Below are positions 7,764 through 61,408 of a stretch of DNA of 64,000 nucleotides, in pieces (within the stretch, counting starts at the first letter, position 1; each line of letters begins with the position of its first letter). The stretch covers positions 62,001 to 126,000 of the forward strand of contig JAJCZL010000067.1 of the NCBI GenBank assembly GCA_029262415.1, read 5' to 3'. The stretch is from Deltaproteobacteria bacterium. Its GTDB lineage: Bacteria; Desulfobacterota; Binatia; UBA1149; JAJCZL01. The notes beneath the pieces are model-generated. The model was not told the DNA's origin. It was given only the letters and a program-made list of their open reading frames with translations, and ran no database searches. A program made the position numbers and the translations under genes.

Positions 7764-9125
7764 ATGCAAAACACGGTCCTTTTTTCGGCTCTCCTGGCTT
7801 TTGGCCTCGCCTGCTCGGGTTGCTCCACCTATTTCACGCTGAACCAGCCACTCGAGTCTTGGGACAAGGCCAGCGGTTACAGGAGTTCGCGGCGCTGGTC
7901 AGCCGAGCGATCAGATGAGCTGCTGCTCGTTTTGGCCTTCTCGGGCGGAGGCACGCGGGCCAGCGCATTCGCCTACGGCGTTCTCGAACAACTCGCCGAC
8001 ACCGAGATCGTAATTGGGGGCAAACGCCGCCGCCTACTCGACGAGGTCGATCACATCTCCGCGGTATCAGGCGGCAGCTTCACCGCGGCGTATTACGGAT
8101 TGTATGGCGATCGTATCTTCGAGGATTACGAATCTCGCTTTCTCGACCGCGACGTACAGACCAAGCTTTTGCTGAAACTCATGGCCCCGTGGAACTGGGT
8201 CCGGATGGCGTCCCCTTACTACGAGCGTGGAGACCTCGCCGCCGAGGCGTACAATGAATACCTGTTCGAAGACGCGACATACGCAGACATGATCGCTAGC
8301 CTCGGCCCCTTTATACAAATAAACGCGACCGACATCGCAACCGGCCATCCGTTTTCGTTCATCCAGGAGCAGTTCGACTTTCTGTGTTCAGACCTCGCTA
8401 GCTACCCGGTCGCACGCGCAGTTGCGGCATCCTCCGCCGTCCCCGGCGTGTTCACACCGCTTACGCTCAGGAACTTTGCAGGCAAGTGTGGCTTTGCGGC
8501 ACCCGCCTGGATCGACGAGGAGATGCGAACACCCGATGCTTTCAGCCGCGCCTATGTGAACGCGGCCAACTTAAGATCGTACCTCGACGCAGACCGTCGC
8601 CGTTACATTCGTGTCGTCGACGGCGGCATCTCCGACAATCTAGGTGTACGCGGGCCATTTGAATCGCAAGTCCTGAGCGATCCACGACAGCCGCGGCGTC
8701 CCGAGATCGTCGGCAATCTACGCAACATCGTCTTGGTTCTCGTCAACGCGGCAACGACGCCGGAGGCTGCATGGGAGAACAGCGACGTCTCGATGACGTT
8801 GAGTGCCGTTCTCCAAGACGCAACCACAGTGCAGATCAATCGTTACAGCCTGGAGACTATGGAGTTGCTGCGGAGTAACTTCGAAGCCTGGAACCGGACG
8901 GCGAGCCGGTGGAAGAGCCCGGCGCAATTTCATCTCGTTGAAGTAGATTTCACTAAGCTGTCATCAGCGGAGGAGCGCGCCTACATCAACAAACTACCCA
9001 CCAGCTTCACCCTCGGCGAGGGGGCCGTTGACCGGCTGCGCGCGGCTGCGCGCGGCCTGCTCGCAGAATCGCCTCCTTACCTCCGCTTTCTGCAATCGGT
9101 GCAGGGCGGAGAAATCACCCCGTGA
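7764..9125 (+). CDS. Patatin-like phospholipase, probable lipoprotein
   Basis: 453 residues. The N-terminus is a short signal peptide ending in LACSGC, with Cys17 or Cys20 as candidate lipidation site, so the protein should be envelope-anchored. The patatin catalytic parts are SGGGTRA (60-66, oxyanion hole), ISAVSGGS with nucleophile Ser102, and VVDGGISDN with Asp286, giving a Ser-Asp dyad lipid acyl hydrolase. The first Gly of the usual GxSxG is Ala here, as in related lipoprotein patatins. It ends in a GTGA overlap with the DUF748 gene, implying coupled translation, and is divergent from the CPBP/STING pair. The lipoprotein signal argues against a cytosolic CapV-type CBASS effector. Confidence 0.87.
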   Translation: MQNTVLFSALLAFGLACSGCSTYFTLNQPLESWDKASGYRSSRRWSAERSDELLLVLAFSGGGTRASAFAYGVLEQLADTEIVIGGKRRRLLDEVDHISAVSGGSFTAAYYGLYGDRIFEDYESRFLDRDVQTKLLLKLMAPWNWVRMASPYYERGDLAAEAYNEYLFEDATYADMIASLGPFIQINATDIATGHPFSFIQEQFDFLCSDLASYPVARAVAASSAVPGVFTPLTLRNFAGKCGFAAPAWIDEEMRTPDAFSRAYVNAANLRSYLDADRRRYIRVVDGGISDNLGVRGPFESQVLSDPRQPRRPEIVGNLRNIVLVLVNAATTPEAAWENSDVSMTLSAVLQDATTVQINRYSLETMELLRSNFEAWNRTASRWKSPAQFHLVEVDFTKLSSAEERAYINKLPTSFTLGEGAVDRLRAAARGLLAESPPYLRFLQSVQGGEITP

Positions 9126-12100
9126 ACGAGAAGCCGGCTCCACCCCGGCGTTCACTCGCAGGCATCCTGCTGTCGTTGCGGCCGCCGAGCATTGCAACGC
9201 TTCGCGGGCTGTCACGACCGAAGAAAATCGCCGCAGGGATGGCGATGTTAGTCACCGTTTACGCCCTGTTTGGTTTCCTCGCTCTGCCGTCGATCGTACG
9301 CGGCCGTATCAACGCGTACATCAGCGAAACACTCGGACGTCCGGGTGAGCTGGCCGAGCTTCGCTTTAACCCGTTCGCATTGTCCATTCGCGCGAACCGA
9401 CTCTCGATTTCCCAAGCAGACGGTAACCCACTGGCAGGCTTCAAAGAGCTTCGCGTGAACTTCCAGCTGTCGTCCTTGTACCGTCGCGCGTTCACCTTCG
9501 AGGAACTGGCGGTCGTCGAGCCATACGTACACATCAAGGTTCTGGCCGACGGCACGCTGAACACCTCGACGCTGTTCGCAACCGATCAACAAGAGACGCC
9601 GGAGAAGCAACCTGATGTTGCTGCCGAGCCGATTCCGTTGATTATTGGGCGTCTATCGATCGAGGGTGGTCGGCTCGCGTTTCGCGACGAATCGATTCCG
9701 ACTCCGTACGATGCCGTCCTCGCGCCCGTAGACGTGACACTCGACGGCTTCTCAACCAACCGCGAAAGCGAAGGTGCCCCTTATGCGTTCACCGCGACGA
9801 CTGGGCATGGCGAGAAGCTCGAGTGGGAGGGCGACCTTACTTCCAACCCGCTGCGCTCAGAGGGACGTTTCAAGATTACCGGGGTACGTGCGCGCACCCT
9901 TTGGGAGTACGCGCGCCACAATCTTCGTTTCGAGCCGACCGGCGGCACAATCGATGTTTCGGCCGACTACACACTGGATGGCGCGAACGAAAACATCGGC
10001 CTGACACTTCACGACGGAGCAATGTCGGTTCGCGAGCTGCAGATCGGACCCAAGGTTTACGCGGGGAACACACGACCAACCGTCATCAGCGTTCCGGACT
10101 TTCACGTGCGCGAAACGCGCATGGATCTACGCGCGCGATCGGTGACTCTGGGATCCGTCACCACCATGGGAGGTACCATCCGCATCGCCCTGGACCGCGA
10201 CGGAACGGCCAACCTGGTACAGCTGTTCTCGGCCGCAGAAGCCGGGCCCGTGGAAAACGGCATACCGGTCCGCGAAGATGCAGCCGCGCCGGTGCGCCAA
10301 CAGCTAGCGACGAGTGGTACTGATGCGCCTCCCTGGACGATCGTCGTCGAGGAGGCCAAGGCGGAGAACTACTACGTTTCGTTCCTCGACTTGTCGGGTT
10401 CGCCTCCCGTCGAAGTGATATTCAAGCCGCTAGGTATCACCGTTACCGGATATACCAGCGCGCCCCCTTCTCCCTTCCACGTTCGTGTTGACACCGGGTT
10501 AGGCGAAGACGGCAAGCTCTCGGTCGAGGGTGACGGCACGCTCGCGCCGCTTCGCGCCGACATCGACGTCGACCTCGAGGGTTTGTCGTTGCCGGCCCTC
10601 GGGGGTTACGTCGGACGCGCTGCGGTCGTTAGCATCAAATCCGGAAGCGCCGGTCTCAAAGGAAAGCTTGCGTACCGCGCCAAGCCGGAGGCCAGCGAAG
10701 CCGAGGTCAACTACCGCGGCTCGCTCTCCGTCGACGGCCTCCACACCAAGGACAACACGTTGCACGAGACCTTCCTGCGCTTAGAACATCTGGCGCTTTC
10801 AGGCATCGATCTGCGATTTGAGCCGACCTCGATCATCGTCGATCGTGCCGAAGTCGCGGGGGCACGCGTACGAACCATCGTCGACCATGAAGGCGTGCGC
10901 AACATTGATCGAATTTTCGTGACTACCGAGGTGGCTCCCGACACCGAAGCAATCGAGACGGAGGCGCCGACGGCGACTGGCGATGCCGGCGCCGTCATCC
11001 CCGTACGCATCGGCACGATCACGCTCGAAGACAGCGGCGCCGACTACACCGACCTATCGCTCGACCCGGTGTTTACCACCGGCCTCGAGGCGCTGTCAGG
11101 AACCGTCACCGGGCTCTCCTCCGAGCAAACCGCGCGCGCCAAGGTCGCGCTGAGCGGAACTCTTAACAGATACGCCTCGGTGAGGATCGACGGTAGCGTG
11201 AACCCCTTGGCCACCGACGCCTATACCGACTTGCGCATCAGCGCCAAGAACGTCGGCATGACGGCCTTCGCCCCTTATTCCGGTAAGTTCCTCGGCTACT
11301 TGATCGACAAAGGGAAACTCTTCCTCGACATTTCCTACAAAGTTGAAAAAGGGCGGCTAACCGCACGAAATCAGATTCGTATGGATCAACTCTCGTTTGG
11401 CGACCGAACCGAGAGCAGTGAAGCGACTAACCTACCGGTAGCCCTGGCATTGGCACTGCTTAAGAACCCGGCCGGAGAGATCAATATCGATCTGCCGATG
11501 CGAGGCGACACCAACGATCCTGAGTTTTCTTACGGTAAGCTCATCATTGGCACCTTTCTCAACCTGATCACCAAAATCGTTACATCACCGTTCTCGATCA
11601 TCGGCGGTCTTATACCTGACCTGTCCGGTGACGCGCTGAAATTCGTAGCATTCGACGCCGGATCGGCCGCTCTCGGCGAGAGCTCCGCCAGCAAGCTCGA
11701 CAAACTCGCAGGTGCGTTAAAGAAGCGTCCCGCGTTAAGGCTAGAAGTGCGTGGCGAAGCCTTGCAAGGCTACGACGGCCGCGCCCTACGTGCGTTGAGT
11801 GTCGACCGCCGTTTGAAGATCGCCAGCCTCGGCCGTAACTACGACCCCTCGATGGGACATAAAGAGGTCGACGCAGTCTCGCTGAGCGAACGCGACGTCG
11901 CGAAGTACACGGAACGGCTCTACGAAGAGACCTTCGACGAAAGCCGGCGTGGCGCACGCAGCCGGTTGCGCGTGCAGTGGGAAGCCGAAGGCCTCGGGCG
12001 CCCCGACGACGAAGACGACCGCGTCCGAGCACACATGAGAGCCCGTTTGCTCGCGGCCGAACCCGTCGGCGAATCCAGCCTTAGTACGCTTGCGCAGGCG

Positions 12101-38402: not shown

Positions 38403-39566
38403 TCAATACACACGATCACACTCCGCGAGCGCTTCTTCTGTATCGGCCGGGCACCCTAGACGCGAGAGCTCTGCGCACAGAGCGGTAACAAGGCGGCGGA
38501 CGTTCTCAGGCGTGCTCGATTCACCCATCAGTCCGATACGCAAGACCTTACCCGCGAGCGAACCCAAGCCCGCACCGATCTCGATTCCGTGTCGGTGCAG
38601 CAACGCGCCGCGTAGCGCAGCGTCGTCGAGCCCTTCGGGTACACGTACACTATTGAGCATCGGCAAACGGCTGCCTTCGGCTACAGCCGCGTCCAGACCG
38701 AGCACGGAGAGTCCAGCGATCAACGCGAGATGATTACGTTCGTGCCTTGCAAAACGTTCCGGCAAACCTTCCTCCTCCACTAAGCACAAGGCCTCGTGTA
38801 GCGCGTACACCATCGCGATAGGTGCGGTGTGGTGGTATACGCGCTCGCCCCCGAAGTAACCGCCCAGCAAACCGAGATCGAGGTACCAACTTCGAGCCGG
38901 GCTCTTGCGGGCACCAATCTTAGCCATGGCGCGTTCACTGACCGTTACCGGTGAAAGTCCCGGCGGAGCGCTTAAGCACTTCTGCGTTCCAGAGTAACAA
39001 AGGTCGACCTGCCAGGAGTCGATTTCGACATCGCAACCGGCCAAAGAAGTCACGGTATCCAGCAGGAACAGCGCATCTTTCTCGCGCGCGGCCGCAGAAA
39101 TCTCTTCTACGGGCTGAAGCACACCTGTCGAGGTCTCGGCGTGCACCAGCGCAACGATCGCGGGCTTGCGGCATTGCGCGAGCGCACGACGCATGTCGTC
39201 GGGATCAATGATCTCGCCCCACGGCGCTTCCACAACGACAACATTTCCTCCTTGACGCCTTGCAACCTCGCACATTCGTGTCCCGAAGACCCCGTTGACC
39301 CCGATCACAACCTCCTCACCTTCCTCCACTGCGTTTGCCAGGCATGTCTCCATGCCCGCCGAACCGGTACCCGAAATAGGCAAGGTCATGCGGTTTGCGG
39401 TCCGGAAAACAGTGCGCAGCCTGGCCTGCACATCGTCGAGCAGTCGCAGGAAGAAGGGATCCAGATGCCCAACAATCGGCCGCGCCATCGCAGCCGAAAC
39501 GCGCGGGTGGACCATCGAGGGGCCCGGACCGAGGAGCAGTCGGGTGGGCGGGTATAGCGACCTCAT
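38403..39566 (-). CDS. Alanine/serine-glyoxylate aminotransferase (class V, PLP)
   Basis: 387 residues from an ATG at 39566 with AAGGGGAT upstream. PLP-dependent transaminase of the AGXT/PucG/SpsA group that transfers amino groups to glyoxylate. Start signature LLGPGPSMVHPRV; phosphate-binding SGTGSAGMET (65-74); LLDTVTSLAG with Asp170 that contacts the pyridine nitrogen; and SGTQKCLSAPPG with Lys196 as the Schiff-base lysine. Divergent from glcDEF (85 bp between starts), so the pair would both make (GlcDEF) and consume (this enzyme) glyoxylate. Confidence 0.92.
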   Translation of the reverse strand: MRSLYPPTRLLLGPGPSMVHPRVSAAMARPIVGHLDPFFLRLLDDVQARLRTVFRTANRMTLPISGTGSAGMETCLANAVEEGEEVVIGVNGVFGTRMCEVARRQGGNVVVVEAPWGEIIDPDDMRRALAQCRKPAIVALVHAETSTGVLQPVEEISAAAREKDALFLLDTVTSLAGCDVEIDSWQVDLCYSGTQKCLSAPPGLSPVTVSERAMAKIGARKSPARSWYLDLGLLGGYFGGERVYHHTAPIAMVYALHEALCLVEEEGLPERFARHERNHLALIAGLSVLGLDAAVAEGSRLPMLNSVRVPEGLDDAALRGALLHRHGIEIGAGLGSLAGKVLRIGLMGESSTPENVRRLVTALCAELSRLGCPADTEEALAECDRVY

Positions 39567-39650
39567 CGGATCCCCTTCGTAGTAGCGGGGAGTGTCTGAA
39601 ACAATAGCCACGGCCTCCGGCGGCCGCAGCAGCAGTACGGATCTCCCCCC

Positions 39651-41078
39651 ATGCCCGTCGCCTCCTCAACCCTAAACGAACTCACACGCATCGTCGGTAA
39701 CGACGCGGTGGTCAAAAGCCGCGCGGGGCTCCACGTCTATGAGTGCGACGGTTACACGCTCGAAAAGGCGTGTCCGCAACTCGTCGTGCTCCCCGCCGAT
39801 ACCGCAGAGGTCTGCGAGGTCGTTCGCCTTCTCTCCGATTCGGGTATCGCGTTTGTCCCACGCGGTGCGGGCACAGGAGTAAGCGGTGGCTGTCTGCCGG
39901 CCGAAATTCCGGTGATGATCGGAACCAGCCGGATGAAACGCATCCGCCGCATCGACCTCGCCGAGCGCACGGCCGAGATAGAAGCGGGGATGGTCAACCT
40001 CGATCTCACCCGCGCGGTGGCCGGCGACGGCTTTTACTACGCGCCGGATCCGTCCAGCCAAAACGCATGCACCATCGGCGGTAACATTGCAGAAAACTCG
40101 GGTGGCCCGCATACGTTGAAGTACGGCGTCACCGTCAACCATTTGCTCGGGTTAGAGGTGGTATTACCCAACGGCGAATTGCTGCAGCTAGACCGAACCC
40201 CGGGGCGACCCGGCTACGACCTTAGCGGGTTCATAACCGGCGCCGAAGGAACCCTAGGGATCGTTACCGCCGCAACGGTTCGCCTGCTTCCATCCCCCGA
40301 GTCCGTTGCCACACTACTCGCGGTTTTCCCCGGCGTGCTCGAAGCCTCGCGCGCGGTCTCGCGGATCGTCGCCGCCGCAATCGTTCCCGCCGCGCTCGAG
40401 ATGATGGACGCACTGGTCATTGAAGCGGTCGAAGCCGCATATAAATTCGGGTTTCCTGCCGACGCCGGCGCAGTGCTCATCATTGAGGTCGACGGTCTCG
40501 CTTGCGGACTCGACGGACACTGCGAACATATCAGTCAGGCCTGCCGCGACGAAGGCGCAAGCGAGGTGCGACGCGCAGCCGACGAAAAAGAGCGCGCGCT
40601 ACTGTGGAAATCACGCAAGCGTGCGTTTGGCGCTATGGGCCGACTCGCCCCCGACTATTGTACGCAAGACGGCGTCGTGCCGCGTAGCAAGCTTCCCGAG
40701 ATAGCCGAGCGCACCGCCGAGATCGGCAAGCGCCACGGCATCCGTATCGCGAACCTGATGCATGCAGGCGACGGAAACATCCACCCGCTGCTCCTATACA
40801 ATGGAGAAGACAGCGCCGAGGTTGCACGTGTGCTCGAAGCGAGCCGCGAGATCTTGCAAGCGTGCCTTGAACTCGGCGGTTCCGTAACCGGCGAACACGG
40901 CATCGGTGTCGAGAAGATCGGGCTCATGACGGAGAGTTTTGGCAGTGAGGAGATCGCATCGATGTCCGAGCTGCGCTCGGTGTTTAACCCTCGCGGACTC
41001 TGTAACCCCGGTAAGATCATCCCCGACTCGCGCGCATGCGTCGAGGTTACGCGCCCGCGGCCGCGCGGGGGCGGCTAG
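39651..41078 (+). CDS. glcD: Glycolate oxidase subunit GlcD (FAD-linked)
   Basis: 475 residues. Flavin-containing catalytic subunit that oxidises glycolate or (R)-2-hydroxyacids to the 2-oxoacid. FAD-binding type 4 (PCMH) domain with PRGAGTGVSGGCLP and IGGNIAENSGGPHTLKYGVTVNHLLGLEVV; C-terminal oxidase domain with LMHAGDGNIHPLL and the final VTGEHGIGVEKIGLM...FNPRGLCNPGKI. First gene of glcDEF. A related (R)-lactate dehydrogenase function is an alternative, but the three-subunit order supports glycolate. Confidence 0.94.
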   Translation: MPVASSTLNELTRIVGNDAVVKSRAGLHVYECDGYTLEKACPQLVVLPADTAEVCEVVRLLSDSGIAFVPRGAGTGVSGGCLPAEIPVMIGTSRMKRIRRIDLAERTAEIEAGMVNLDLTRAVAGDGFYYAPDPSSQNACTIGGNIAENSGGPHTLKYGVTVNHLLGLEVVLPNGELLQLDRTPGRPGYDLSGFITGAEGTLGIVTAATVRLLPSPESVATLLAVFPGVLEASRAVSRIVAAAIVPAALEMMDALVIEAVEAAYKFGFPADAGAVLIIEVDGLACGLDGHCEHISQACRDEGASEVRRAADEKERALLWKSRKRAFGAMGRLAPDYCTQDGVVPRSKLPEIAERTAEIGKRHGIRIANLMHAGDGNIHPLLLYNGEDSAEVARVLEASREILQACLELGGSVTGEHGIGVEKIGLMTESFGSEEIASMSELRSVFNPRGLCNPGKIIPDSRACVEVTRPRPRGGG

Positions 41079-41121
41079 CCAACGGAGCCCACGGGTCTAG
41101 GAACCACGGATAACGCTCATC

Positions 41122-42327
41122 ATGTTCGCGACTGAAAGCTTCACGCCGGACAGCATTGACGAATTGTGCGCGTTCTTGCGTGACGAAGACGCTCCGCGGG
41201 TTGTCGTGCGTGGTGGGCAAACAATGATCGGTGCCGGCAACCCGCCCGAGGGCGCGCAGTGTATGCTCGATACTTCGTCGCTCGATTCCGTGGTCGAGGC
41301 GAATCCCGACGACCTGACGATCACCGTGCAAGCCGGTGCGACCCTCAGTGCGGTTAACGAAGAACTCGCACTCGCCGGACAACGCGTAGTGTTGGATTCT
41401 CCCGGACCGGGCGCGACAATCGGCGGCATCCTCGCGACCGACCGTCCGGGGTCATTCGGCTACGGTTTCGGCGGAGCACGCGATCGCGTGCTCGGGATGA
41501 CCGTGGTCGATGGACGCGGGCGCTCGCTGAGTTACGGTGGACGCGTCGTCAAGAACGTATCTGGCTATGACTGCGCGAAGCTGTTCGTGGGCAGCTACGG
41601 AACGATCGGCGCAATCACCGAAACCACGCTGCGCACGCACCCACTGCCGGAGACAGCCTTCCACCTTACTTTCTCTTTCAGCTCTGTGCGCGAAGCCGAG
41701 GGCTTTCGACACCGGGCCGGTGCGAGCCCTTTCGCTCCAGTCTACTTCGACTTCGTGCGCCGCCACGCGACCCGGTGGGACTTGCACTTGGGTTCAGAAG
41801 GCACGGCGATCGAGACCGGCGCACAAAGACTGGGCCTCGAACGCATCGCCGGAAAGGCGGCGAAGACAGAACAGGTCGGGACTACGCAGGCCGCTCCTAC
41901 GCGCGATTGTCGCCGAAGCGACTGCGGCGACATCGCGCCCGCACCAGTCGGCCACGCCATGCGCCTCCGAATCGGAGTCGCAGCGAAACGTGTGCTCGGT
42001 TTCTGCGAGACAATGATCGTAGACGATGCAAGTTTTGGCGACGATGAAGTCACCGAGATCCGTGGCCACTTGGGATCGGGAGTTGCCGTTATCACGCTGG
42101 GCGCCCACGTCGCTGCTGCTCGTGCACGCAGCCTAGTGCTTGGTTGGCGCGAGGCTGCGCAAGCAGAAGGGGGCTATGCTGCCATCGAAGACTTCGGCCC
42201 GCAAGTACCCGATGCACTCGACGCATGGGGTGCTCCGCCCGCAGGCATCGAGTTCATGAGACAAATCAAAAACACCTACGATCCCCGGCGGCTGCTTGCG
42301 CCCGGCCGTTTCGTCGGCGGAATCTGA
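41122..42327 (+). CDS. glcE: Glycolate oxidase subunit GlcE (FAD-binding)
   Basis: 401 residues (GlcE is about 350 in E. coli). FAD-binding type 4 domain at the N-terminus: VVVRGGQTMIGAGNPP, then LDSPGPGATIGGILATDRPGSFGYGFGGARDRVLGM and YDCAKLFVGSYGTIGAITETTLR. The C-terminal end IKNTYDPRRLLAPGRFVGGI is diagnostic. Residues about 237-270 (KAAKTEQVGTTQAAPTRDCRRSD...) are a low-complexity, unconserved insert that accounts for the extra length. Between glcD and glcF, gaps of 43 and 17 bp. Confidence 0.9.
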   Translation: MFATESFTPDSIDELCAFLRDEDAPRVVVRGGQTMIGAGNPPEGAQCMLDTSSLDSVVEANPDDLTITVQAGATLSAVNEELALAGQRVVLDSPGPGATIGGILATDRPGSFGYGFGGARDRVLGMTVVDGRGRSLSYGGRVVKNVSGYDCAKLFVGSYGTIGAITETTLRTHPLPETAFHLTFSFSSVREAEGFRHRAGASPFAPVYFDFVRRHATRWDLHLGSEGTAIETGAQRLGLERIAGKAAKTEQVGTTQAAPTRDCRRSDCGDIAPAPVGHAMRLRIGVAAKRVLGFCETMIVDDASFGDDEVTEIRGHLGSGVAVITLGAHVAAARARSLVLGWREAAQAEGGYAAIEDFGPQVPDALDAWGAPPAGIEFMRQIKNTYDPRRLLAPGRFVGGI

Positions 42328-42344
42328 ACGGCGAGCCCTGAAAG

Positions 42345-43586
42345 ATGGAAGACCTCGGCCTCCCCTGTGTCCACTGCGGACTTTGCTTGAACACCTGCCC
42401 GACGTACCGCGTACTCGGAACCGAAGCCGATTCACCGCGCGGACGTATTTACATTATGGAAGCCGTGAAACGCGGCGCACTCGAGCTCGATGCCGACGCG
42501 CGCGCCCATCTCGACGCTTGCCTCGGTTGCCTGGCGTGTGAAACCGCTTGCCCCTCGGGCGTCAGCTACGGCGCACGCATCGAGGAATTCCGTCCACAGT
42601 TGCGTGAAGGCATGCTCGCACAGCTACGCTACAAGTTTATCGATGCAACTGCGGTGCGCGGACGTGGACTCGATTTCGCCCTCGGTTTCGCGCGGCTGAT
42701 GGACTCGGCGGGTCTGGAACGCCTGCGCCGCTACCTGCCTGCACTCGACGTATTGCCGGGGCGTACCTCCGAAACCACGCGCGGGACAACGTGTGCGGAC
42801 CTGTCACCGTTGATGCGAAGCAGCGTCGCTGCGCCCACAACCCCGCGCCTACGCGTTGGCTTACTTACCGGCTGCGCATCCGACCGGATGCTTCCCGAGA
42901 TCAATCGTGACTGCGTCGAAGTGCTGCACCGCAACGGGATCGCCGTGATCGACGTGCAAGGGCAAGGCTGTTGTGGCGCACTTTCGCTTCATGCCGGCGA
43001 CGCGATCAACGCCAAGCGCTTAGCCCGCGCGAACGCACGCGCGTTCGCGTCAAGCAACCTCGACTTCGTCGTAACCACAGCGGCGGGTTGCACAGCAACG
43101 CAGCGCGATAGCGCGCGCCTCCTTCATGGTGCGGATAGCGGTCTCGGCGAACGAACGCGCGACGTCTGCGAACTGCTTGTCGAGGCAGGCTTCAAACTGC
43201 CCGCCAACACGGTAGGCCGCGGCACCAACGTCGCCTACCACGACGCGTGTCATCTGGCGCACGGCTGCTCGATCACCGATGCACCACGCGCCGTGGTAGC
43301 AGCCGCGACCGGTCGCCCACCCACAGACCTCGGCGAGAACGAGGTCTGTTGCGGCAGCGCCGGTAGCTACAACATCGAGCATCCGCTCATGGGACGTAGG
43401 CTCGGTGACCGTAAGGCCGAACTCGTAGATCAGGCCGGAATCGATCTGCTCGCGGTCGGAAACGCCGGCTGCATTCTGCAGATCACGAGATCGCTGCGCG
43501 CACGCGCGATGCCGACGCGGGTGGTTCACCCGGTGCAGCTGCTTGCCGACGCTTACCGTGCCTCGGAGTCGATTCTCGGTTCCTGA
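42345..43586 (+). CDS. glcF: Glycolate oxidase iron-sulfur subunit GlcF
   Basis: 413 residues. Carries electrons from the flavins to the quinone pool. Two 4Fe-4S clusters: CVHCGLCLNTCP (Cys 8, 11, 14, 18) and CLGCLACETACP (Cys 59, 62, 65, 69). Two CCG (Cys-Cys-Gly) domains follow: GQGCCGALSLHAGD and NEVCCGSAGSYN, with YHDACHLAHG between. The operon order glcD-glcE-glcF is complete, and no GlcC regulator or glycolate permease is next to it. A GGCTGATCAGCC palindrome lies just after the stop. Confidence 0.94.
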   Translation: MEDLGLPCVHCGLCLNTCPTYRVLGTEADSPRGRIYIMEAVKRGALELDADARAHLDACLGCLACETACPSGVSYGARIEEFRPQLREGMLAQLRYKFIDATAVRGRGLDFALGFARLMDSAGLERLRRYLPALDVLPGRTSETTRGTTCADLSPLMRSSVAAPTTPRLRVGLLTGCASDRMLPEINRDCVEVLHRNGIAVIDVQGQGCCGALSLHAGDAINAKRLARANARAFASSNLDFVVTTAAGCTATQRDSARLLHGADSGLGERTRDVCELLVEAGFKLPANTVGRGTNVAYHDACHLAHGCSITDAPRAVVAAATGRPPTDLGENEVCCGSAGSYNIEHPLMGRRLGDRKAELVDQAGIDLLAVGNAGCILQITRSLRARAMPTRVVHPVQLLADAYRASESILGS

Positions 43587-56144: not shown

Positions 56145-56774
56145 CTAACCAAACCGCCCGAGCAAGGCGGCGAGCTCGCGAAGACTTTCGATCGAATGTT
56201 CGCTGTCTTCGGCTACGGGGCCGATGCCGACGAACGGCATTGCCGCGGCTTGTGCGCTTGCGGCGTCGCTGGCTTGGTCGCCGACAAATATTGCTTCGCT
56301 AGCTTTGAGGCCGAACTCCTGGGTGCAGGCGAGCAGCATATCGGGATAAGGCTTGGGGCGAAGCTCTCCGCGGGCGCCGACCGCGAAGTCGAACAATTCG
56401 CCCAACCCGAACCGCTTGAGTAACTCATCGAAGGTTGAGCTACGATTGGTCGCCATCGCGATCTTTTGGCCGTGGTCCTCGCGTAGCTCGGCCAGTACTT
56501 CATAGAGGTGCTCACGCGGCTGCATCATATCGAAAAAAGGATCGTAGGATGTCTTACGCGCCGCCTCCCGGACGCGCGTGAGGAGCTCCAGATCGTCACC
56601 GAAGTAGTGCTTAAAGAGATCGACCGACGCCATCGCGTGCGCGGCGACCTCGCCCCCGGCGGGTAACGGCGGAGCACCGGCCGAACGCAACACTTCTTCG
56701 TAGAACGACACGTTCGCGTGGTCGGAGTGAAACATCACACCGTCACAATCGAAGATTACTGCTTTGATCGCCAT
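56145..56774 (-). CDS. HAD superfamily phosphatase
   Basis: 209 residues from an ATG at 56774. HAD motif I is FDCDGVMFHSD (DxD), motif II ATNRSST, motif III near KPYPDML, motif IV FVGDQASDAASAQAAAMP (GDxxxD). C1-type cap. Phosphoglycolate-phosphatase or Gph-like enzymes look most similar, so it might dephosphorylate glycerol phosphate, phosphoglycolate or similar. It follows glpK by 26 bp, suggesting membership in the glycerol operon. Confidence 0.85.
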   Translation of the reverse strand: MAIKAVIFDCDGVMFHSDHANVSFYEEVLRSAGAPPLPAGGEVAAHAMASVDLFKHYFGDDLELLTRVREAARKTSYDPFFDMMQPREHLYEVLAELREDHGQKIAMATNRSSTFDELLKRFGLGELFDFAVGARGELRPKPYPDMLLACTQEFGLKASEAIFVGDQASDAASAQAAAMPFVGIGPVAEDSEHSIESLRELAALLGRFG

Positions 56775-56800: not shown

Positions 56801-58255
56801 TTAGAGTTCGGCTGCGACGATCTTGTTCAGACGCGCACGCCACGAGGCGTTGCGCGTCTCGCGCTCATCGGTCGAGATCGCGGGCACAAAGGTCGCGTCG
56901 GGATGCCAAAGCCGCCCGACTTCATCGATGTCACTCCATACACCCGCACCCAAACCTGCCAGTAATGCGGCACCCAGGGCGGCGCCGTCGCGTACGGGTG
57001 AGCGTTCAATCGGGATCCCAATCAGGTCGGCCTGGGCCTGCAGTAAGAATTGGTTCGCACTGGCGCCACCGTCGGCGCGCACAACAGCCGGTGGCTCGGA
57101 CAACGCCTGCCAAACCGCCGCGCCCGCGTCGGCGATGCGATGCGCAACGCCTTCGAGCACCGCGCGAACTATCTCGGCCTTACCGCTTCCACGCGAAAGC
57201 CCGCCGATCAGAGCCCGCGCTTCAGGTCTTTGTTCCGGGGTGCCGAGTCCTTGAAACGCCGGCACCGCCCACACGCCCGAATCAGCGGCTGCGCCGGCCG
57301 CAATGTCGGAGGTTTCGGCTGCGTCGGTGACGGCGCCGAGTCCATCGCGCAGCCACTGAATGGCAGCACCTGCGGTGATCACTTGGCCTTCGACGCAGAA
57401 CGCGACTTGTTCCCCGAGCTTCCATGCAACGAGTGGAAAGGTCCCCGGACCGCCCATCGCAACCTGGTCGCCGGAATGCGCGTTCACCGAGGCAGAGGTC
57501 CCATAGCTGATCTTGGCCGCCCCGTGGGTGTGACAACCCAAACCGAACAACGAGGATTGTTGGTCGGCGCAAATCGCAGCGATCGGAATCTTTGCGCCGA
57601 AGACTTCTCTGCTGGTGACCGCAAGCTCACCGCTCGAATCTGCGAGATCGGGAAGCCACGCGCGCTCCAACCCCAGCACATCCAGAATTGCGTCGTCCCA
57701 ATCGGCCCTAAAATGCGCGTACATACCGGTCGAACTGGCGTTACTGTGCTCGCTCACGTGGATTCCGCCGGACAGGCGCGCAACCAACCAACTGTCGGGC
57801 GTACCGAGTCGGATAGATCCGTTTCTCGCCGCAGCCGCCGCTTCGTCGATGTTGCGGACAATCCACTCGGCTTTACTCGCGGCCATCATCGACTGAACGA
57901 AAAAGCCTTGCGCACCGAGTTCGTCGCAACGGGCGGCGCCGCGCGTGTCTTGCCAATTTATGATCGGCGAAAGCTCGCGAACCTTGTCGTCCCAAGCCAC
58001 GATCGAAGAACGCTGATTGGAAATCCCGATTGCGCGTAGATCCACGGGCCTAATCCCCGCCGCCTCGAGGGCATCGCCGATCGCCGCTTGCACACTCTCC
58101 CAAGTCGAGTCGGCGGGCTGTTCAACCCAGCCGGGCTTAGGATACACCGTGCGAACCTCTCGCGACCCGGTACCGCGTACGGCAGCCTTGTCGTCAAAGA
58201 CAAGCGCTTTGACTCCCGTTGTACCGAGATCGATCGCGAGCAGGAGGTCAGGCAT
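56801..58255 (-). CDS. glpK: Glycerol kinase
   Basis: 484 residues, FGGY-family length. It phosphorylates glycerol to glycerol-3-phosphate. LAIDLGTTGVKALVFDD starts the ASKHA fold; GISNQRSSIVAWD, ADQQSSLFGLGC and YGTSASVNAHSG correspond to the substrate and ATP regions; the GlpK-type C-terminal block is VRADGGASANQFLLQAQADLIGIPIERS. Adjacent GlpD supports glycerol over pentose substrates, though FGGY enzymes for other polyols are hard to exclude. It overlaps the upstream flavoprotein gene by eight bases. Confidence 0.87.
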   Translation of the reverse strand: MPDLLLAIDLGTTGVKALVFDDKAAVRGTGSREVRTVYPKPGWVEQPADSTWESVQAAIGDALEAAGIRPVDLRAIGISNQRSSIVAWDDKVRELSPIINWQDTRGAARCDELGAQGFFVQSMMAASKAEWIVRNIDEAAAAARNGSIRLGTPDSWLVARLSGGIHVSEHSNASSTGMYAHFRADWDDAILDVLGLERAWLPDLADSSGELAVTSREVFGAKIPIAAICADQQSSLFGLGCHTHGAAKISYGTSASVNAHSGDQVAMGGPGTFPLVAWKLGEQVAFCVEGQVITAGAAIQWLRDGLGAVTDAAETSDIAAGAAADSGVWAVPAFQGLGTPEQRPEARALIGGLSRGSGKAEIVRAVLEGVAHRIADAGAAVWQALSEPPAVVRADGGASANQFLLQAQADLIGIPIERSPVRDGAALGAALLAGLGAGVWSDIDEVGRLWHPDATFVPAISTDERETRNASWRARLNKIVAAEL

Positions 58256-59651
58256 CCAGAAGTGCCCCCGGGTTCATGATGTTGTCAGGATCAAAGGCGC
58301 GCTTGAGTGCCACCAAGAGATCGTGGGCACCGCCGAGTTCTTTCTTCAGCCACTCTTTGCGCATGCGGCCGATACCGTGGTGATGCGCAATCGTGCCACC
58401 GTGTTCGTGGGTTGCGTCAAGGATGGTGTCCCACGCCTGGTCATAGAGTTTCAGGCGGTCGGCCATCTCTTCCTTCGCACCTGCGAACGTAAAATAAATG
58501 TTCGCACCCTGAGTGTAGGAGTGTGAGATATGCCCGGAGACCACCAGCATACCGTCGAGCGCACTACCGCGCTCAACCACAGCCTCCCAGAGCGGAACCA
58601 GCTTTTCCCAGCTCGCCGCGATCTCGATGGTGTCGGCGACCAACCCCTGGTCGAGTAGGCTCTCGAACGTCGGAACGTCGTTTCGGTGGTCGATCCAGCT
58701 TTTTACGGGTTCGTCACCGTGGTCGGTGCCCCGGTGCTCTTTGACCAACGCCGCGATCGCCTCGAGTTCGGCTTCGACACGCGCACTCGGACCTTCACTC
58801 AACACCAGCAAAACCGAGCTGCCTTCTGCAGCGACGCCGGCGAAGTTGCGCCCCGCCTCGCGTGAGTCATACAGCCGCGTCACCGAAGGCGTCCAGCCTG
58901 CACGCAACGTTTTGCGTAAGACCTCGATCGGCGCGGCAAGATCTGCAAACGCATAGGCCCGGCCCTTCTGCGTCTCCGGCAACGGGTGGATACGGTAGGT
59001 AAGCTCGGTAAAAACTCCGAGCACGCCCTCGGCACCCATGAAGATGTGGCGAAGATCCGGCCCCGCGGCTGAACGCGGCACGGAGGGAAGCGTAATTACC
59101 TGTCCGCCCGGCAGCACGATCTCGCAGCCGAGCAGCATGTTCTCGATGTTGCCGTACAGCGTTGAGTGCTGCCCCGAAGCGCGCGTCGCGCACCATCCAC
59201 CCACAGTCGACAACGCGATCGACTGCGGAAAGTGGCCCATCGTAAAGCCCTTCGCGTTGAGCTGCTCTTCGAATGTGCTGCCGCGCATACCGGCCTGTAC
59301 CGTCACGGTTAAAGAGTTGTCGTTGATCGAGGTGATTTTATCCATCGCACTCATATCGAGTACCAGCTGGTCGCGTTCGGGAAGAACGCCGCCGACGACC
59401 CCGGAGCCGAGCCCAAAAGGAACCACCGAGGTCTTGGTCTTCCGCGCCCAAGTGAGCACGGACGAAACCTCCGCGGTGGTGCTCGGACGCGCAACCGCAA
59501 GCCCACGCTGGGTCACGCCCATGCGCCGCTGCAACAGGGAACGCATCCAGTAGTCGTGGCTCTTAGCCGCGACGGCTTCGGCCGCATCGACGACTTCGAG
59601 CTTGGGCGCGGCTGCGCGCAAAGCATTCAAGATCTCTTGTTGTCCCGACAT
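58248..59651 (-). CDS. FAD-linked oxidase, alkyl-DHAP synthase-like
   Basis: 467 residues from an ATG at 59651 with GGGGAG upstream. FAD-binding type 4 (PCMH) domain: VVPFGLGSGVVGGVLP, then IALSTVGGWCATRASGQHSTLYGNIENMLLGCEIV; the C-terminal FAD-linked oxidase domain contains HISHSYTQGANIYFTF and THEHGGTIAHHHGIGRMRKEWL. The His-rich GTIAHHHG motif is the hallmark of alkylglycerone-phosphate synthase (AGPS), which builds ether lipids by swapping acyl for alkyl on DHAP, and of related bacterial flavoenzymes. Sitting between glpD and glpK it links to glycerol-3-phosphate/DHAP. Which reaction it performs is not settled. Confidence 0.85.
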   Translation of the reverse strand: MSGQQEILNALRAAAPKLEVVDAAEAVAAKSHDYWMRSLLQRRMGVTQRGLAVARPSTTAEVSSVLTWARKTKTSVVPFGLGSGVVGGVLPERDQLVLDMSAMDKITSINDNSLTVTVQAGMRGSTFEEQLNAKGFTMGHFPQSIALSTVGGWCATRASGQHSTLYGNIENMLLGCEIVLPGGQVITLPSVPRSAAGPDLRHIFMGAEGVLGVFTELTYRIHPLPETQKGRAYAFADLAAPIEVLRKTLRAGWTPSVTRLYDSREAGRNFAGVAAEGSSVLLVLSEGPSARVEAELEAIAALVKEHRGTDHGDEPVKSWIDHRNDVPTFESLLDQGLVADTIEIAASWEKLVPLWEAVVERGSALDGMLVVSGHISHSYTQGANIYFTFAGAKEEMADRLKLYDQAWDTILDATHEHGGTIAHHHGIGRMRKEWLKKELGGAHDLLVALKRAFDPDNIMNPGALLDA

Positions 59652-59676
59652 TCGGCTCCCCTGTTTCATTGCCCGT

Positions 59677-61299
59677 CTATACCGTTGCGCGTACTACCGA
59701 GAGGAGATGTTCCACGAACATCTTGAACTTCTCGGCCTCGATGTCACGCCGTGCGGCGTCCCAACCCAAATGCTCGGCCATACGCGCCGCGGCGGGCACA
59801 GCCGCCGCGGCTGCGCGAAAGCCGTCGAACATCCCGACGCGCGTACGCCGGCGCAGTAGATCGTCGAGCGTCAGCGTCATCTCGTGCCGGACGCAGTGGT
59901 CAACCTCGGCACGTGTCAGCTCCTCAGCGCCGCCAACGGGCTCGGCTGCCGAAGGATCGTCTTTGATGCGTGCGACAATCCCCGCCGCTTCACACCCGTA
60001 GGTCGCCCACAAACGATCGGCGAGTTCCGGATCGTCAAGCTCGGGCGCGTCGTAGCGCGCCTGGCGTTGGTCGCGTAAGTTTCCACCGCTGAGCGCTCTC
60101 TCCGAAGAGTCAACGTCTTGGGCAGGCGGGCGACCGACAAACGTCGCGGCGCGCTCAACAACACGCTCGGCCATCCGTCGATAGGTCGTAAGTTTTCCGC
60201 CGGCAACCGACACCATCGGCCCAGGCCCGTCCAGAATCTCGTCGCGGCGCGAGATCTCTGAGGGCGCCTTGCCCTCTTGCGCGAGCAGCGGTCGAACGCC
60301 CGACCACGTACCGATGATGTCGGATGCGTCGGGCGGATTCTCGATCGTTGAGGCGACGCTCTCTAAGAGGTAGTCGGCATCGTCGATCGACACTCCAGGT
60401 TCGGCGCGGTCACCTTCGAAGTGGGTATCGGTGGTTCCTATGTAGGAGTAGCGTCCAGCCGGCACGATAAATGTCGAGCGGCCATCGGGGGCGCGCAACA
60501 CGACACTGTGCTTGACCGGCAGGCGCTCACGCGCGACGACCAAATGGATGCCGCGGGTAAGCTGCAAAAGCCCGCCTGCCGATTCAGTGCCGAGTGCGCG
60601 CACCTGTTCCATCCACGGACCGCCCGCGTTGACGAGACAACGGCAGCGAACGACTAGGTCTTCACCGCCGATGACATCGCGGATGCTCGCGCGCAGACCG
60701 GCCGTGTCAAACTCGATCGCCGTAACCTCGGCATAACTGGCCGCGAGGCCGCCTTCGGCAACACCAGACTTGATGGTCTCTAAGGTCAACCGCGCATCGT
60801 TGGTGACATACTCGGTAAACACTACCGAGCCCGCAAGCCTGTCGTTCTTGCGCAGGCAAGGCTCGGCTGCGCGCGTATCCTTGCGGCTCAGCACTTTGTG
60901 TCGATCCGAAGGATCGCCTGCAAGCCGGTCAAAGGTCCATAAGCCGGCAGCCACCTTCAACACGCCGCCCTTGGATGCAGCAGGGACCATCATCGAGACC
61001 GGCACAGCCAGGTGCGGGGCCATACGGTGTAGACGGGCGCGCTCACGTGCGGCCTCGCGAACCAGCTTGAGGTCACCTTGCTGAAGGTAGCGAACGCCAC
61101 CGTGGATAAGTTTAGAAGAACGGCTACTCGTACCAGCGGCAAAATCGCTGCGGTCAACCAACGCGACGCTATAACCTTTGAGCGCAGCCTCGCGGAGAAC
61201 GCCGGCGCCGGTGATCCCGCCGCCAACGACGAGGATGTCGAGCACCGACTCAGCGGCGATTTCGAGCGCCTTACGGCGTGTGTGTCGGGAGAATTCCAC
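59677..61299 (-). CDS. glpD: Glycerol-3-phosphate dehydrogenase/oxidase
   Basis: About 540 residues from a GTG at 61299; the frame is open to 61401, and the ribosome site is unclear. FAD-dependent conversion of glycerol-3-phosphate to DHAP at the inner membrane. FAD-binding GGGITGAGVLREAALKG and DRSDFAAGTSSRSSKLIHGGVRYL are diagnostic, with VVFTEYVTNDARLTLE, GTTDTHFEGD, IIGTWSGVRPLL and VAGGKLTTYRRMAERVV. First gene of a minus-strand unit glpD, AGPS-like, glpK, HAD. Confidence 0.93.
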   Translation of the reverse strand: MEFSRHTRRKALEIAAESVLDILVVGGGITGAGVLREAALKGYSVALVDRSDFAAGTSSRSSKLIHGGVRYLQQGDLKLVREAARERARLHRMAPHLAVPVSMMVPAASKGGVLKVAAGLWTFDRLAGDPSDRHKVLSRKDTRAAEPCLRKNDRLAGSVVFTEYVTNDARLTLETIKSGVAEGGLAASYAEVTAIEFDTAGLRASIRDVIGGEDLVVRCRCLVNAGGPWMEQVRALGTESAGGLLQLTRGIHLVVARERLPVKHSVVLRAPDGRSTFIVPAGRYSYIGTTDTHFEGDRAEPGVSIDDADYLLESVASTIENPPDASDIIGTWSGVRPLLAQEGKAPSEISRRDEILDGPGPMVSVAGGKLTTYRRMAERVVERAATFVGRPPAQDVDSSERALSGGNLRDQRQARYDAPELDDPELADRLWATYGCEAAGIVARIKDDPSAAEPVGGAEELTRAEVDHCVRHEMTLTLDDLLRRRTRVGMFDGFRAAAAAVPAAARMAEHLGWDAARRDIEAEKFKMFVEHLLSVVRATV

Positions 61300-61408
61300 A
61301 GGGACGTCAGCGGGCCGCAGCCACAGCGGAGAGTGCTGGAAGCGGGCGGTTAGCGCAACGATCGGGGTTGCGGACGCTTGGTCGTTACGGCACGCTGGCA
61401 CCGTCGTG

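Follow-up and report, generated by a model that had tools for sequence, protein, structure and literature searches.

Described systems with AGPS homologues

It has been reported for Pseudomonas aeruginosa that GliR co-activates the operon PA3026-PA3024 together with the phospholipase C gene PA3464. In the authors' proposal, the operon converts glycerol into alkylglycerone phosphate; few genomes had its orthologues in a cluster, and a deletion mutant showed no phenotype, either on glycerol or in the BIOLOG plates used (PMC8151288, in the excerpts available). In Myxococcus xanthus, the genes MXAN_1676-1674 encode alkyl-DHAP synthase (AGPS), FAR-GNPAT and an NAD-dependent protein, and loss of MXAN_1676 (AGPS) lowered ether lipids only slightly, according to the accessible portions of PMC9131029. 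The locus reported here lies in a window of 64,000 nucleotides, which is the whole stretch of DNA that was analysed.

Gene content of the locus

The target gene (58248..59651, minus strand) was assigned to the short form of the AGPS superclade of FAD enzymes (467 aa) from Pfam, a phmmer search of the PDB, a residue signature, a tree and a predicted structure. Its open reading frame was listed as 58248-59669 on the minus strand, and the ATG at 59651 was preferred as the start because a ribosome-binding-like stretch, GGGGAG, precedes it. The Pfam domains FAD_binding_4 (1.7e-37) and FAD-oxidase_C (4.8e-36) were matched, and the GTIAHHHG motif named in the initial annotation is present as GGTIAHHHGIG. 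On the same strand, a GlpD-like FAD dehydrogenase (59677..61401, minus strand), assigned from Pfam/NCBIfam matches and its retained substrate-site residues, lies 25 nt from the target ATG; its homology begins at about residue 37, and the GTG at 61299 is its probable start. At the other end, the target gene overlaps by 8 nt with a same-strand gene for a GlpK-like FGGY kinase without the glycerol signature (56801..58255, minus strand; Pfam/NCBIfam matches and signature alignment). The initial annotation had the gene between glpD and glpK and touching both, which is right for its position and for the kinase side only. A HAD-superfamily hydrolase gene (56145..56774, minus strand), 26 nt beyond the kinase gene, is a probable fourth member, judged from its reading frame, its Pfam match and the HAD genes near the relatives' operons; its frame is open from 56843, with ATG 56774 as the likely start. 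Within this operon, no transporter, alcohol dehydrogenase, redox partner, acyltransferase or fatty-acyl reductase gene was found.

Elsewhere in the window, a GlcD-E-F-type set is encoded on the plus strand (39651-41078, 41122-42327 and 42345-43586; the E and F assignments were made by eye). Next to it, a divergent gene (38403-39611) resembles serine-pyruvate/alanine-glyoxylate aminotransferase. The region 38403-43586 is probably a glycolate pathway distinct from the target.

Placement of the flavoenzyme within the AGPS superclade

In the phmmer ranking of PDB entries, Dictyostelium AGPS (4.3e-61) and mammalian AGPS (4.7e-58) came first, followed by a putative oxidoreductase (3.7e-33). The residue signature was read from an alignment of 78 rows, which included 13 dehydrogenase rows and 28 short rows, one of them the window protein and 27 its relatives, with the numbering of guinea-pig AGPS (R419, Y578, H615-617). 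R419, Y578 and HHH were found in all 28 short rows, whereas the dehydrogenases had E, H and G/A-E-H at these positions (13/13) and never R419 or Y578 (0/13); three rows (L150, L151, L154) matched neither pattern. The HxGDGNxH and EHG motifs of GlcD and D-lactate dehydrogenase are replaced in the target by GHISHSYTQGANIY and HHHG. We take the HHH histidines of AGPS to be important and the conserved E and second H of the dehydrogenases to be a metal site. PDB titles name the AGPS mutants Arg419His and Tyr578Phe. The R515 column, which falls in a gappy stretch of the alignment, holds R in 23 of 24 AGPS-proper-type rows and in one of the 28 short rows; the window protein has E there.

A tree of 68 of the 78 rows split all AGPS-like rows from the dehydrogenases with support of 100/98. 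The AGPS-proper set (21 rows, 100/99) comprised both eukaryotic AGPS, ten long bacterial forms and nine clostridial/spirochaetal forms, and this eukaryotic-AGPS clade excluded the window protein, which was placed in a separate set of 23 rows (100/99), 22 from its own class and one from Novosphingobium. The other nine plasmid-borne short forms had no firm placement. A paralogue of 589 aa encoded on contig C34 of the same genome belonged to the long AGPS-proper set, with AGPS as its best PDB match (1.4e-65); its gene lies at 8076-9935 of locus L121, and its contig had no PF07993 or PF01553 match. The short clade lacks the first ~158 residues of AGPS. An AlphaFold2 model of the target (mean pLDDT 86) had AGPS as its best Foldseek match. 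By VIA-align it superposed on AGPS with an rmsd of 2.4 over 457 residues, starting from AGPS residue 159, and on D-lactate dehydrogenase with an rmsd of 2.9, both at Z 38, so the fold alone cannot tell the two apart. No AGPS-like protein in the scan reached the cut-off of an NCBIfam model.

On sequence grounds, the target is thus assigned to the AGPS superclade and not to the D-lactate/glycolate dehydrogenases, and within the superclade it is classed in a separate short clade, not as an AGPS orthologue. The AGPS kinship proposed in the initial annotation is borne out by sequence, active-site signature and tree, and in the phylogeny the target groups with AGPS instead of D-lactate/glycolate oxidases. 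A grouping with D-lactate, glycolate or 2-hydroxyacid dehydrogenases was rejected on the residue signature and the 100/98 split.

The initial annotation had also raised ether-lipid synthesis, with the target as a working AGPS. A variant that would fit the altered kinase described below starts from monoacylglycerol: the kinase would phosphorylate it, acyl-DHAP would arise when GlpD oxidises the resulting lysophosphatidate, and the AGPS-like enzyme would put a fatty alcohol in place of the acyl group. The retained R419, Y578 and HHH speak for synthesis, as does AGPS being both the closest solved relative (4e-61 and 5e-58, the next at 3.7e-33) and the best Foldseek match. A genome search for fatty-acyl reductase and acyltransferase partners gave matches to broad families (PF07993, n = 13; PF01553, n = 10), which are possible partner sources but do not decide for or against synthesis, and none of them is on the window's contig. 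Moreover, the clade that unites eukaryotic AGPS with the long bacterial forms does not include the target, the R515 column differs (in the gappy stretch), a separate AGPS-clade gene is present on C34, lipid partners are missing from the operon, and the relatives' genes accompany uptake transporters. Synthesis is therefore not supported and is regarded as quite unlikely.

Kinase and dehydrogenase of the operon

The operon kinase scored 402/387 bits with the NCBIfam glycerol-kinase models, against cut-offs of 498/590, and its paralogue on contig C33 exceeded both (774/702). The glycerol-kinase signature has been given as R83, E84, Y135, D245 and F270 (PMC3245297, in the part available; E. coli numbering). 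The window kinase keeps R83 and D245 and has lost three of the five (E84 to S, Y135 to M, F270 to S), and E84, Y135 and F270 are absent in all 18 operon kinases, that is, the window's and those of 17 relatives. Among the GlpK-like kinases of plasmid-borne relatives (Novosphingobium, Cupriavidus, Paracoccus and Microbacterium), E84 and Y135 were lost in 4/4 and F270 in 2/4; more distant FGGY-type kinases align too poorly and were left out of this reading. By these residues and scores, the kinase is classed as a divergent FGGY type and not a canonical glycerol kinase, and it looks re-tooled for a substrate larger than glycerol.

The substrate-site residues of E. coli GlpD, which we take to be R54, Y55, H233, R317, R332 and K354, are kept in the operon GlpD in all 23 class rows. 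The operon GlpD stays below the NCBIfam cut-offs (PRK12266, 311.5 against 360), and some of its residues unlike those of canonical enzymes are shared with Bacillus-type GlpD, which is not decisive.

The canonical GlpK and GlpD of the same genome are both encoded on contig C33. The label of a glycerol-3-phosphate operon in the initial annotation thus holds for the GlpD- and GlpK-like genes as such, but the kinase is divergent and canonical glpK and glpD are elsewhere. The neighbours and the GlpP-type antiterminators near some relatives could be explained by a second, redundant glycerol catabolic operon that carries an unrelated flavoprotein as a passenger. This is very improbable in view of the C33 genes, the glycerol signature lost in the kinase and the fact that the supposed passenger keeps its place next to GlpD in all but one of the 22 relatives.

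Conservation and phylogenetic profile within the class

A match at E <= 1e-90 (identity of at least 41%) was present in 53 of the 98 class genomes searched, namely the own genome and 52 relatives. Neighbourhoods were counted in 22 of these 52 relatives, for which the surroundings were retrieved on one contig. A GlpD-like gene was beside the target homologue in 21 of the 22, a GlpK-like kinase gene in 16 and a HAD gene in 8; in six the kinase gene was not adjacent to the AGPS-like gene. The gene order is conserved beyond chance.

For the phylogenetic profile, two genome sets were chosen by hand: 24 genomes with the short enzyme, including the own genome, and 24 of the 45 class relatives with a weaker best match. 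The operon-type kinase was found in 23/24 genomes with the short enzyme and in 1/24 without it, counts that are not independent because the genomes are related. The exceptions were G061, with the short enzyme and no altered kinase, and G014 (74% complete), with the kinase and no short enzyme. The canonical R-E-Y-D-F GlpK was present in 24/24 genomes with the short enzyme versus 16/24 without. In the 23 genomes with the operon-type kinase, E84 and F270 were lost in every case and Y135 in 22, the F270 position being Met in 20 and Ser in three. In five of them (G016, G022, G035, G037 and G087) the altered kinase gene lies away from the AGPS-like gene, and in G087 it adjoins another GlpD-like gene.

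Gene contexts outside the class

At the phylum level, 16 of 297 genomes passed E 1e-100 with the family model. Among the 11 weaker-hit places whose surroundings were retrieved, eight had an FGGY/GlpK-like kinase nearby and three had none (L220, L222, L229). Plasmid-borne short forms adjoin FGGY kinases in Novosphingobium, Paracoccus (two species), Cupriavidus (two species, with GlpD between), Burkholderia, Arthrobacter (broken frames), Microbacterium (a hypothetical gene between), Ilyobacter, Priestia, Streptomyces, Enterococcus, Roseibium, Shinella and Sinorhizobium. These clusters are often accompanied by transporters of the MFS or carbohydrate ABC type, and alcohol or aldehyde dehydrogenases are close by in several. 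For example, the two Cupriavidus species have MFS, FGGY, GlpD and AGPS-like genes with a glycerol-3-phosphate antiterminator, and GlpP-type antiterminators occur near some relatives. Paracoccus jeotgali has an ABC transporter, GlpD, the AGPS-like enzyme, FGGY, aldehyde dehydrogenase, enoyl-CoA hydratases and an Fe-alcohol dehydrogenase; Roseibium, Paracoccus contaminans and Shinella have LacI, the AGPS-like enzyme, a kinase, a carbohydrate ABC transporter, glycerol/Fe-alcohol dehydrogenase and an SDR; and alcohol dehydrogenase homologues are near the clusters of Burkholderia arboris and Arthrobacter. An exception is pMNOD02 of Methylobacterium nodulans (L165), where a short AGPS-like gene is accompanied by PdxA, a four-carbon acid sugar kinase and a DeoR-type regulator, and FGGY and GlpD are missing; here, too, a kinase is paired with a dehydrogenase, though of other kinds.

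For the AGPS-proper type, 58 clostridial/spirochaetal loci were surveyed, many of which end at contig ends: GlpA-like genes were present at 43, an FGGY kinase at 34 and neither at seven. A cluster of GlpA-like, NAD/FAD oxidoreductase, FGGY kinase and long AGPS-like genes recurs in Clostridia and Treponema (L041-L099). AGPS-like genes split over frames were seen in a Kofleriaceae MAG (L095, 46%) and on the Arthrobacter plasmid (L282, where the kinase gene is split too), and these are put down to sequencing errors or pseudogenes.

In distant branches, other partners were found. A CCG-type iron-sulphur protein is encoded between the AGPS-like gene and GlpD at L225, L227 and L228 (by Pfam at L225, by sequence likeness at the others), and one follows the variant AGPS-like gene at L220 and L222 (by Pfam at L220). 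EtfBA-type genes are near the AGPS-like gene at L219 (by eye) and in Ilyobacter. For those distant branches at least, such neighbours point to electron transfer. The variant at L220 and L222 has an E/D-H-H motif, with creatininase-family, UPF0261-type and transporter genes near it, in a catabolic-looking, undescribed cluster.

The target could also be an ordinary redox enzyme. As a dehydrogenase or an oxidase, it would act on a phosphorylated derivative of a polyol or sugar supplied by the kinase and GlpD, with its electrons passing to a quinone, an ETF or an Fe-S partner. The VAO-type fold common to D-lactate/glycolate dehydrogenases (the tie at Z 38), the Fe-S CCG or EtfBA-type genes adjoining distant relatives and the presence of the family in sugar-type clusters are consistent with such a role. 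However, all 28 short rows have H and Y, the AGPS residues, in place of the E and second H of the dehydrogenases, the window operon has no redox partner gene, and in the tree the dehydrogenases split off from the AGPS-like group as a whole (100/98). A redox role is considered a less likely alternative; the initial annotation had offered one of this kind, the oxidation of a glycerol-derived substrate, beside ether-lipid synthesis.

A possible route for substituted glycerols

The reading that we prefer, with a probability of about 0.4, is that the operon serves the salvage or breakdown of a 1-O-substituted glycerol, whose substituent the AGPS-like enzyme would cleave or exchange. Its family, signature and gene order and its co-occurrence with the altered kinase are observed; we infer the substrate, the direction and the cleavage as follows. 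The substrate would be R-O-CH2-CHOH-CH2OH, where R might be an alkyl, an acyl or a sugar group. Its free end would be phosphorylated by the divergent FGGY kinase and its C2 oxidised to a ketone by the GlpD-like enzyme, giving 1-O-R-DHAP, a compound of the type that AGPS uses. AGPS chemistry proceeds via a flavin N5 adduct. By the same type of chemistry, an N5 adduct at C1 in the AGPS-like enzyme would expel the substituent, and the attacking partner would most likely be water or another small nucleophile, not a fatty alcohol, so that ROH and DHAP would be released. The flavin N5 adduct of AGPS is mentioned in passing in the available part of PMC7662398.

A shared intermediate, 1-O-substituted DHAP, would suit the altered kinase as well as the GlpD site that is retained and the signature of AGPS, and the transporters and alcohol dehydrogenases recurring in relatives favour breakdown over synthesis. 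The joint activation of PA3026-PA3024 and a phospholipase C gene by GliR in P. aeruginosa also speaks for this reading. Counting against cleavage, the window operon has no transporter or alcohol dehydrogenase of its own, the kinase is away from the gene in 6/22 relatives, the Fe-S CCG/ETF-type partners of distant members suggest redox chemistry in part of the family, the fold comparison does not tell AGPS from D-lactate dehydrogenase, and the P. aeruginosa PA3026-PA3024 deletion had no phenotype. A more specific and somewhat more doubtful form of the proposal is a bacterial phosphorylative etherase pathway. In it, the kinase, the GlpD-like enzyme and an AGPS-superclade flavin enzyme working without net redox change would convert 1-O-substituted glycerols to DHAP and an alcohol, and the animal ether-lipid synthase would be a branch of a bacterial family whose role is mainly catabolic. 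No paper describing cleavage of this kind was found in the open-licence PMC literature.

The conserved operon of an AGPS cousin, a GlpD-like enzyme and an altered kinase may reflect an undescribed route for the breakdown of substituted glycerols. Animal alkylglycerol monooxygenase is given as the only known enzyme that breaks the alkylglycerol ether (PMC7911779, PMC3617469, in the parts available), and a soluble bacterial flavin route would, if true, be the second. It would also explain many genes now named only 'FAD-binding oxidoreductase' and suggest an origin for animal AGPS. AGPS homologues have been screened as a marker of ether-lipid producers (PMC11868695, in the text accessible); the cleavage reading, if true, would warn against such use in bacteria. 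It can be tested directly with three genes.

Comparison with known systems

Eukaryotic AGPS (EC 2.5.1.26; PDB 2uuu, 4bby) and the target have in common the fold, the FAD and cap domains, R419, Y578 and HHH, but the target lacks the ~158 N-terminal residues, has no R in the R515 column, and differs in clade and gene context. With GlcD and mitochondrial D-lactate dehydrogenase it shares Pfam domains and fold, but these have E, H and E-H where the target has R, Y and H-H. Myxococcus xanthus MXAN_1676-1674 also contains a bacterial AGPS homologue, whose partners are lipid-synthesis enzymes instead of a kinase and GlpD (PMC9131029, in its accessible portions). The Treponema/Clostridia clusters likewise combine a kinase, a glycerol-3-phosphate-dehydrogenase-like flavoprotein and an AGPS-like enzyme, but the enzyme is the long form of the AGPS-proper clade and the dehydrogenase is GlpA-type, not GlpD-type. 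Among published systems, the P. aeruginosa GliR regulon comes closest: by gene content alone, PA3026-PA3025-PA3024 resembles the window operon, since an oxidoreductase assigned to alkylglycerone-phosphate formation is encoded there together with an FGGY kinase and a homologue of GlpD.
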